The position numbers and the translations under genes were made by a program. Of a stretch of 64,000 nt of DNA, positions 8,345-10,474 are shown in pieces; within the stretch, counting starts at the first letter, position 1, and each line of letters opens with the position of its first letter. The notes below the pieces were generated by a model that worked only from the letters and a program-made list of their open reading frames with translations, made no database searches and had not been told where the DNA came from. The DNA comes from Acidobacteriota bacterium (GTDB lineage Bacteria; Acidobacteriota; Vicinamibacteria; Vicinamibacterales; CAVVIG01), in assembly GCA_020850715.1 (NCBI GenBank), contig JADZED010000027.1, forward strand, positions 1-64,000, in the 5' to 3' direction.

Positions 8345-9172
8345 TCAATTATGACGCATCCGCAGCCGCAGCGCGTCCCAGGCGTCGCGCGGCAGCGTCG
8401 CGGCGCCGGGCGCCGCGGCGCCGTGCGCGTTGTCGCCGTGGAAGTCCGAGCCGCCCGTGATGAGCAGTCCGGCGCGCGACGCCAGTTCCGCGTAGCGGGA
8501 CGCGGCCGCTGCGTCGTGCTCGCTGTGGTAGGCCTCGATCGCATCGATCCCCGCGTCGATGAGACCGGGCAGCCACTCGTCGTGGCGCAGCAGCCCCGGG
8601 TGCGCCAGCGACACCAGGCCGCCGGCGGCGTGCAGCCGTTCGGTCACCTCCGACGGCGACGCCGCGAGCCGCGGCACGTACGCGGGGCGGCCGCGCCCGA
8701 GCCACCGGCCGAAGGCCACGTCGATCGAGGCCGCGTACCCCGCCGCGACCATCGCCCGCGCGACCCACGGACGACCGGCCGACTTCGAGGCATCGTCGAT
8801 CGCGGGCTGCACCAGCGCGTCCGCATCGAGCGGCATCCCGAGCCCGGCGAGCCGCGCGACGATCGCGCGCACGCGATCGATGCGCCGCAGGCGCTGCTGG
8901 GCGAGGAAGTCGAGCAGGGGCGCCGAGTGCACGTCGATGAAGTAGCCGAGCACGTGGACATCGGCGTCGTCGCGCGCGGCGGTCACCTCGATGCCCGGCA
9001 CGAACTCGAGGCCGGCGGATCGGCAGGCCGCCGCGGCCGCGTCGGCGCCGGCGACGGTGTCGTGATCGGTGACGCCGAGCACCGTCACGCCCGCGCGGGC
9101 GGCGCAGGCCACCAGATCGGCGGGCGACAGGCGGCCGTCGGACGCGTGCGTATGGGTGTGGAGATCGATCAC
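8345..9172 (-). CDS. PHP-domain phosphoesterase (RNase AM/TrpH-like)
   Basis: A 275-residue PHP phosphoesterase. Metal ligands are in DLHTHTHASDG at the extreme N-terminus, VTDHDT, PGIEV, LAHPG and GSDFHG, the full set for a trinuclear centre. Length and motifs match the TrpH/YciV family, which includes the 5'-3' RNase AM and 3',5'-nucleotide bisphosphate phosphatases. GTG at 9172 overlaps the previous stop as GTGA, placing the motif right at the N-terminus as in the family. Manganese or iron use would fit the operon, which otherwise deals with iron. Confidence 0.85.
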   Translation of the reverse strand: MIDLHTHTHASDGRLSPADLVACAARAGVTVLGVTDHDTVAGADAAAAACRSAGLEFVPGIEVTAARDDADVHVLGYFIDVHSAPLLDFLAQQRLRRIDRVRAIVARLAGLGMPLDADALVQPAIDDASKSAGRPWVARAMVAAGYAASIDVAFGRWLGRGRPAYVPRLAASPSEVTERLHAAGGLVSLAHPGLLRHDEWLPGLIDAGIDAIEAYHSEHDAAAASRYAELASRAGLLITGGSDFHGDNAHGAAAPGAATLPRDAWDALRLRMRHN

Positions 9173-10104
9173 CGGTGCGGGCGCTTCTTCCGGCGTTCGC
9201 GCAGGGCGCGGTATTCCCGGATGAGCAGGTTCAGGTGGTCGCGCTCCTCGGCGGCGAATTCGAGGAAGATGCGCCGGCCCTCGGTTTCCTCGAACCGCTC
9301 GCCATACTTCTTGAAGAACTGGTGCGAACCGCGCTCGCACTTGATGCCGATGAGCAGCGCCCGCTCGGCGTCGACGCCGTGGCGCAGCTCCTCAGCCCCG
9401 GAAGAGAAGAGGCGATTGGCGGGCCCCTTGAAGAAGAGGAAGGTCGGCCGCGACTCCAGCTTCGGGTCTCCGGCGAGCAGCTCCGCGTAGCGCTGCTTGA
9501 GCGTCGCCAGGTGCTCCCCCTCTTCGAGGGCGAGCTGCTGGAACACGCGGCGCCCGCGCGCGTCGGAGGTGATCTTCGCCGCGCGCGTGTAGAACTCCAG
9601 GCCGCTCTGCTCGGTGGCGATCGCCATGCGGAGCGCGTCGCGCGCGAAGACGAGGCCGGTGGTGGATCCGTCGATCGGCGGCGTGCTCGTGCCGGTGCGG
9701 CAGGCCTCGCAGACGCCGACGATCTGCACGACCGTCTCCTTGGGCTGGAAGTTCCGGGCGCCCGCGATCTCCTGGAGCAGCCCTTCGACGTCCGAGCTCA
9801 GGAACTCCGACGACTGGTGGCAGGTGGTGCAGACCAGATGGAAGTGGCGCGGGTGCCGGTGCGCCGGCTCGTAGCGCGAGCGTCCCTCGCCGAAATCGAC
9901 CTTGCGCGCGATGCCGGCCTCGACCATCGACTGCAGCGACCGGTAGACCGTGGCGCGGCCGACGCGGCTGTCCTCGTGCCGGACCAGCGCGAACAGATCG
10001 TCGGCGCTCACGTGACCCTCCTGCCGGAGGAAGATCTGGAGGATGCGATCGCGCTTGCTGGATCGCTTCCCCCCGGCCGGTTTGAGCGTCGGGATCTCGG
10101 ACAC
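9169..10104 (-). CDS. Fur-family repressor fused to a ferritin-like diiron domain
   Basis: A 311-residue two-domain protein. Residues about 15-135 are a Fur/PerR winged-helix unit: RATVYRSL recognition helix, HPRHFHLVCTTC metal site, and a second CEAC pair that would hold structural zinc. Residues about 150-305 are a rubrerythrin/ferritin-like four-helix bundle with EQSGLEFY, EEGEH and a second-half ERGSH plus EERDH, supplying Glu and ExxH ligands for a diiron site. GTG at 10104 lies 28 nt after erpA; the ATG at 10179 is possible but overlaps erpA. A sensor that reads iron or peroxide through the diiron site and acts through Fur DNA binding is the obvious inference. The domains are clear; the function is not tested. 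Confidence 0.85.
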   Translation of the reverse strand: MSEIPTLKPAGGKRSSKRDRILQIFLRQEGHVSADDLFALVRHEDSRVGRATVYRSLQSMVEAGIARKVDFGEGRSRYEPAHRHPRHFHLVCTTCHQSSEFLSSDVEGLLQEIAGARNFQPKETVVQIVGVCEACRTGTSTPPIDGSTTGLVFARDALRMAIATEQSGLEFYTRAAKITSDARGRRVFQQLALEEGEHLATLKQRYAELLAGDPKLESRPTFLFFKGPANRLFSSGAEELRHGVDAERALLIGIKCERGSHQFFKKYGERFEETEGRRIFLEFAAEERDHLNLLIREYRALRERRKKRPHR

Positions 10105-10132: not shown

Positions 10133-10462
10133 TCAGTCGACGGTGAAGGAGGAGCCGCAGCCGCAGGTCGACTTCGCATTCGGGTTCTTGATGGTGAAGC
10201 CGCCGCCGCTGATCGTATCCACGAAGTCCACTTCGGCGCCCATCAGATACCGGATGCTGATCGGATCCACGTACAGCCTGACGCCGTTGGTCTCGAACAC
10301 CTGATCGCCGGACCCCTGTCCGTTCTCCTCGATCATCAGTCCGTACTGAAAGCCCGAGCATCCGCCGCCCTGCACGAACACGCGCAGGCCGCTGCCCGCC
10401 TTGTTCTCTTCGCTCAACAGCTCGACGATCTTGCCCGCTGCAGTCTCGGATACGTTAATCAT
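10133..10462 (-). CDS. erpA: A-type iron-sulfur carrier (ErpA/IscA family)
   Basis: A 109-residue A-type carrier. The three conserved Cys are present: GGGCSGFQY and the C-terminal CGCGSSF. Such proteins deliver Fe-S clusters to apo-targets. In this window the class I fumarase and probably radical-SAM Mo-cofactor enzymes elsewhere would be clients. ATG at 10462 lies 6 nt after a perfect TATAAT, so the operon message is probably leaderless. It is the first gene of the five-gene unit ending at 7160. ErpA versus IscA cannot be settled from sequence alone. Confidence 0.92.
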   Translation of the reverse strand: MINVSETAAGKIVELLSEENKAGSGLRVFVQGGGCSGFQYGLMIEENGQGSGDQVFETNGVRLYVDPISIRYLMGAEVDFVDTISGGGFTIKNPNAKSTCGCGSSFTVD

Positions 10463-10468
10463 GTCAAC

Positions 10469-10474
10469 ATTATA
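10469..10474 (-). promoter_or_regulatory. -10 box TATAAT, leaderless start of erpA operon
   Basis: A consensus TATAAT is followed by 6 nt and the erpA ATG, with no room for a ribosome binding site. No good -35 hexamer is visible at 16-18 bp. Confidence 0.6.

Follow-up and report, generated by a model that had tools for sequence, protein, structure and literature searches.

The window, by which we mean the whole stretch of 64,000 nucleotides that was analysed, carries on its minus strand an operon in which an erpA/iscA-type Fe-S carrier gene is followed by a gene joining a Fur-type regulator to a ferritin-like domain (hereafter the fusion) and then by a PHP-domain gene. The positions of the genes, and of the domains and sites in the fusion protein, are collected in Table 1.

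Table 1. Genes, domains and sites of the erpA-fur/ferritin-PHP operon in the window
Feature	Position	Strand	Basis and remarks
Predicted -10 box TATAAT of the operon	10469..10474	-	Six bases before the erpA ATG
erpA/iscA-type Fe-S carrier gene	10133..10462	-	Pfam Fe-S_biosyn, E 6e-19; 28 nt upstream of the fusion
fur-ferritin fusion gene	9169..10104	-	311 aa, GTG start, TGA stop; open frame and Pfam domains
FUR domain, residues 11-127	9724..10074	-	Pfam PF01475, E 2e-25
Recognition helix, residues 50-63 (RATVYRSLQSMVEA), Fur-type Arg55	9916..9957	-	Modelled as a helix (50-63)
Fur regulatory metal site H31, E79, H87, H89, E100	9805..10014	-	Invariant in 104 orthologs and in diverged fusions
Structural Zn site C92, C95, C132, C135	9700..9831	-	Invariant in 104 orthologs and in all diverged fusions
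Linker, residues 138-151	9652..9693	-	Variable, 14 aa; 1/14 columns invariant
Ferritin-like four-helix domain, residues 152-303	9196..9651	-	Pfam Rubrerythrin; model; PDB matches
Diiron ligands E165 / E195-x-x-H198 / E257 / E287-x-x-H290	9235..9612	-	Invariant in 104 orthologs
PHP-domain gene	8345..9172	-	Pfam PHP, E 4e-11; downstream of the fusion

We found that the frame of the fusion is open from the GTG at 10104 to the TGA at 9169-9171, which bears out the original prediction that a Fur-type and a ferritin-like part are encoded in a single uninterrupted frame. The Pfam search that it had suggested returned both FUR and, from residue 156 onward, Rubrerythrin (E 4e-10), each above the curated cut-off. 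The other elements that it had named were identified as well, namely a recognition helix, which carries RATVYR, the His/Glu residues and both CxxC pairs of the Fur metal sites, and two ExxH motifs, E195-x-x-H198 and E287-x-x-H290, to which E165 and E257 are added as further Glu ligands. NCBIfam gave Fur-family matches together with weak ferritin-domain matches, and a PDB sequence search with the fusion found Fur structures and the COG1633-like protein 2fzf. Tyr172 lies seven residues past E165 and is conserved in the 104 orthologs, while C256 is the only Cys beyond the Fur part. The original prediction had further been staked on a four-helix bundle in a predicted structure. The full-length monomer model (pLDDT 80, pTM 0.66) showed a confident bundle of helices 146-178, 182-212, 246-268 and 275-307 and a poorly placed Fur part. 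Because a fold search with this model listed only Fur domains, at low TM-scores, the C-terminal part was modelled alone; a confident four-helix bundle was again predicted, with a mean pLDDT of 88 and a pTM of 0.83. The top PDB matches of this model in Foldseek were ferritin-like (2fzf, a Dps-like protein, 2oh3 and Mn catalase; E 0.003 at best, probability 1.00, TM about 0.6-0.7), and a profile search of the domain concurred, with 2fzf and 1vjx.

The best matches of the C-terminal domain by both sequence and fold are thus COG1633/rubrerythrin-like proteins (PDB 2fzf, 2oh3), which share its E / ExxH / E / ExxH set. However, these proteins stand alone, and the fusion gave no match to a rubredoxin-like FeCys4 domain in Pfam or NCBIfam, so that it is not a classical rubrerythrin. 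MbfA combines a ferritin-like domain with a VIT1 iron exporter and is under the control of Irr. It is likewise an iron-homeostasis protein with a fused ferritin-like domain, and it gave a weak NCBIfam match. Nevertheless, MbfA is a membrane transporter, whereas the partner domain here is the regulator itself without a membrane part, and no VIT1-type exporter domain was found in the fusion by Pfam or NCBIfam. The ferroxidase centre of E. coli Bfr consists of E18, E51, H54, E94, E127 and H130, together with Tyr25 (PMC7762939 for most of them). The fusion has the same symmetrical ligand pattern, with Tyr172 matching Tyr25. Unlike bacterioferritin, the fusion gives no sign of cage formation and is tethered to a DNA-binding protein; given the tethered Fur dimer, a cage of the bacterioferritin or Dps type is unlikely. 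In FBXL5/BRUTUS and in bacterial hemerythrin-domain sensors, iron or oxygen is sensed by a four-helix diiron domain that is linked to an effector (PMC12022348, PMC9388753). These proteins have a hemerythrin fold and a ubiquitin ligase or signalling output, and their likeness to the fusion would be one of analogy only.

The N-terminal part belongs to the Fur family by its FUR domain (Pfam, and PDB matches by sequence and fold), its regulatory His/Glu ligands and its Zn cysteines. Fur of E. coli, B. cereus and M. gryphiswaldense shares with it the FUR fold as judged from sequence, the regulatory metal residues, the Zn CxxC pairs, the Arg of the recognition helix, a Glu at the position of the PerR Asp and a 7-1-7 palindromic box before uptake genes. 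The fusion differs from these proteins in its C-terminal ferritin-like diiron domain of ~150 aa and in its candidate box, TGAGACTNAGTCTCA as compared with TGATAATNATTATCA of classic Fur. It also departs from E. coli Fur at the accessory, third metal site, formed by H87, D89 and H125 in the E. coli protein. The corresponding residues in the order are R86, F88 and mostly S/T124, and in the diverged fusions described below these positions are largely His.

Fur and PerR are distinguished by two residues, Asn61 and Asp104 in B. subtilis PerR versus Arg and Glu in Fur, and Fur turns peroxide-sensitive once the discriminator Glu is changed to Asp (PMC8638851). We considered whether the fusion senses peroxide as PerR does, by oxidation of the Fur metal site itself, since it is a member of the Fur family and its HFH motif recalls the HxH of PerR. 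We regard this as most improbable: the PerR hallmarks Asp104 and Asn61 are replaced by Glu100 and Arg55, both invariant in the 104 orthologs, and the candidate box stands before genes of iron uptake and storage. Because of the Arg/Glu discriminators and this candidate operator, the sequence points instead to an iron-responsive Fur with a built-in diiron domain, which the protein very probably is, and not to a peroxide-sensing PerR. Redox sensing by the fusion, if any, must come from the diiron domain.

We then surveyed the distribution of the fusion. The original prediction had allowed that the fusion might be an assembly artefact, in which case close relatives should lack it. This does not hold. 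Of 60 whole genomes of the order, which record titles place in Vicinamibacterales (Acidobacteriota), 58 have the fusion; it is unbroken in these, except in G034, where it is split between two contig ends, and the two genomes without it are G036 and G049. Moreover, a scan of public genomes for close relatives returned at least 80 fusion loci, nearly all titled Acidobacteria, Terriglobia or Vicinamibacterales, and the few titled otherwise (Acidimicrobiia or Bifidobacterium, for example) probably come from mislabelled bins. An assembly artefact was rejected on these two counts, and what had been predicted, a Fur-type regulator joined to a ferritin-like domain with an intact set of diiron ligands and kept across the order, is supported. 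A plasmid search found no record spanning most of the fusion. A Pfam FUR search of the window's genome returned the fusion alone (the genome is 93.6% complete, so that a second copy may have been missed), as did a Rubrerythrin family search, and by the same FUR search most relatives in the order have one FUR protein each.

Outside the order, diverged full-length fusions of 32-41% identity were identified among 396 Acidobacteriota genomes, in families f22, f25, f35, f42, f54, f59, f62, f67, f69 and f91; most of the other matches in the phylum were stand-alone Fur proteins, ~150-190 aa long. In the four genomes that belong to the class but not to the order, Fur occurs only as a stand-alone protein. 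In a tree of the Fur part, the fusions of the order form one clade (support 100/99) and most other fusions a second clade (85/83), with f59, f22 and f91 left unplaced. Fused ferritin domains scored 129-255 bits against a profile that includes fused members and is therefore biased towards them, versus at most 92 bits for stand-alone relatives in the phylum. It is plausible that the fusion arose once, followed by losses or transfers.

Alignment of the 104 orthologs showed that all metal ligands listed in Table 1 (H31, E79, H87, H89, E100, C92, C95, C132 and C135 in the Fur part; E165, E195, H198, E257, E287 and H290 in the ferritin part) are invariant, as are R50, A51, T52, Y54 and R55 of the recognition helix. 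Pairwise identities average 76.1% over the Fur part and 76.2% over the ferritin part, and 34/131 columns of the FUR part, 48/152 of the ferritin part and 1/14 of the linker are invariant. Since identity is equal in both halves, the ferritin part is as constrained as the DNA-binding part. The six bacterioferritin-type ligands and the conserved Tyr172 would suit ferroxidase chemistry, and the variable linker would suit loose tethering. Both features fit a diiron domain that is merely attached as a ferroxidase/peroxidase or an iron buffer beside the Fur site, protecting the Fur metal site from oxidation or dampening swings in iron, with no allosteric signal to the DNA-binding part. However, the two domains have stayed joined across the order and in several other families, so that the single chain seems to matter, and we hold such an arrangement to be less likely than coupling, though it is the main rival reading.

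The full diiron set is also kept in the diverged fusions of f22, f25, f35, f54, f59, f62, f67, f69 and f91. In f42, at least one diiron ligand is lost in five of the six members read, and the Fur sites are all kept, which indicates that the Fur part does not depend on the centre in every family. The loss is piecemeal, with E165, E195, H198, E257 or E287 replaced in L145-L149 and the Fur ligands intact; in L143, the sixth member, the diiron set is complete. Ferritin-like bundles commonly dimerise, and f42 retains the core that defines the fold while losing ligands, as would be expected of a bundle that serves in structure or oligomerisation and has no metal role. Such a role is improbable in our view, given that the six ligands are invariant in the 104 orthologs and are retained in every further family read except f42.

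The surroundings of the fusion were compared across the order. erpA lies directly upstream in 103/103 loci and the PHP gene directly downstream in 89/103; in the window the GTG start of the PHP gene overlaps the stop of the fusion by 4 nt (GTGA), and the two are translationally coupled. Among the 7-mer cores found ahead of erpA in relatives, TATAAT is the most frequent, and the position of TATAAT in the window suggests that the operon transcript would be leaderless. A TATAAT six bases ahead of the erpA ATG was also seen in some relatives. We looked for an autoregulatory box in the erpA promoter and found none. A dyad, TATACCAA-N8-TTGGTATA, present upstream of erpA in about ten relatives (at loci L002, L005, L007, L009, L011 and L016-L018), was discounted, since it reads as a pair of divergent extended -10 promoters that overlap. 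The constant neighbourhood of erpA raised the question of whether the fusion serves Fe-S assembly as an iron donor or gauge, its diiron site supplying the ErpA carrier with iron, and regulation being secondary. In the diverged fusions of other families, however, erpA is not adjacent (some f42 loci have it 2.5-6 kb away), and the operator data below fit an ordinary Fur regulon; we give a donor function very little credence.

A candidate operator was found in the palindrome TGAGA-N5-TCTCA, first seen upstream of feoA in six genomes. The candidate box has the consensus TGAGACTNAGTCTCA, and a copy from an FTR1 promoter reads TGAGACTGAGTCTCA. Summed over the 60 genomes of the order, TGAGA-N5-TCTCA gave 115 matches versus 13 for the control, a reversed and equally palindromic sequence. 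Among 27 FTR1 genes, which were found by Pfam independently of the box, 24 have it within 230 nt upstream with at most one core mismatch, compared with 0 for the reversed control and 0.7% for shuffles. The box was also identified upstream of feoA, a ferritin gene and TonB-receptor genes in genomes of the order, and a few of the listed sites lie inside ORFs or ahead of unrelated genes. G036 and G049, the genomes without the fusion, have no TGAGA-N5-TCTCA, and the same is true of some fusion-bearing genomes. In most genomes with box-bearing FTR1 genes, the fusion is the only FUR protein by our tally, and we infer that it binds the candidate box. A DtxR-family protein, found in nearly all genomes examined and usually once per genome, could in principle bind the box as well. 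In G022, which has no FUR protein besides the fusion, three tandem TGAGA-N5-TCTCA boxes with 23-24 nt spacing lie upstream of a ferritin gene (L225:1501-1562).

A Fur-type box ahead of iron uptake and storage genes was thus seen in relatives and not in the window's own genome. The latter has no exact TGAGA-N5-TCTCA, and its near-matches are no commoner than those of the control; one of them, TGAGACTCGATATCA, nevertheless precedes a TonB receptor of the same architecture. Neither FTR1 nor FeoB was found in this genome. Elsewhere, the box also precedes stand-alone fur genes, in G086 and G052, which fits the expectation for a Fur-family box. TGAGACTNAGTCTCA was further observed across the phylum in genomes with stand-alone Fur (for example G086:C43:268289, G141 and G098), including upstream of a fur gene. 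Because of these positions, the candidate looks like an Acidobacteriota Fur box, and TGAGACTNAGTCTCA is probably a phylum-level Fur box, which the fusion would have inherited. The classic Fur box TGATAATNATTATCA was rejected as the operator of the fusion, as E. coli-type boxes are rare, with about one weak match per genome. The sole match in the window's genome adjoins prephenate-dehydratase-like and dCTP-deaminase-like ORFs, both named by eye. Second, stand-alone FUR genes in some relatives (G013:C309:3341, G018:C2:9033 and G027:C51:4724) have near-canonical E. coli-type Fur boxes ahead of them, unlike the presumed regulon of the fusion.

Based on the above results, we lean towards viewing the fusion as the order's global iron regulator, a Fur that binds the candidate box and is tuned by its diiron site. 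In this model, a Fur-type, iron-responsive dimer would bind TGAGACTNAGTCTCA boxes and repress iron uptake through FTR1, FeoAB and TonB receptors, and it would also act on the ferritin gene. The bacterioferritin-type diiron site in the C-terminal bundle, which by its ligands presumably binds iron, would report iron and oxidant status and adjust the Fur part, so that one protein would read two sites of different affinity and chemistry. We favour a global regulator because no FUR protein other than the fusion was found in the window's genome or in most relatives, the ligands of the fusion are invariant and its halves equally conserved, an Fe-S carrier gene stands in the operon at all 103 loci, and the box is found at FTR1, feoA, ferritin and TonB-receptor genes. 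Against it stand the loss of diiron ligands in f42, the window's genome with neither an exact box nor FTR1 or FeoB, the DtxR-family protein as a rival binder and the poorly placed Fur part in the model. As for the tuning, we infer that the state of the diiron site alters DNA binding by the Fur part. The more specific proposal that the ferritin-like site reads iron together with O2 or peroxide, and allosterically sets the DNA binding of an otherwise peroxide-insensitive Fur, is put forward tentatively, as a possibility to which we give somewhat less than even weight.

The fusion was not described in the literature searched, which comprised open-licence papers, and the architecture may already be recorded in domain databases. 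Each of the two domains, Fur and ferritin-like, is well known by itself; what is new here is the candidate box and the genes that it precedes. Iron and oxidants are usually sensed by several regulators, among which the task is divided: Fur, PerR, OxyR and Irr. In these soil bacteria, an entire order that is abundant and little studied, the main and often only Fur bears a diiron domain in which every ligand is kept. The candidate box yields a predicted Fur regulon for Vicinamibacterales, and both this candidate operator and its targets are open to ordinary binding assays. The fusion also makes it possible to ask, in a natural system, whether a transcription factor can use a diiron centre as its sensor, for which f42 is a ready negative control. 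If the coupling between the two domains is real, a single protein would integrate iron and oxidative status as the global iron control of the order.
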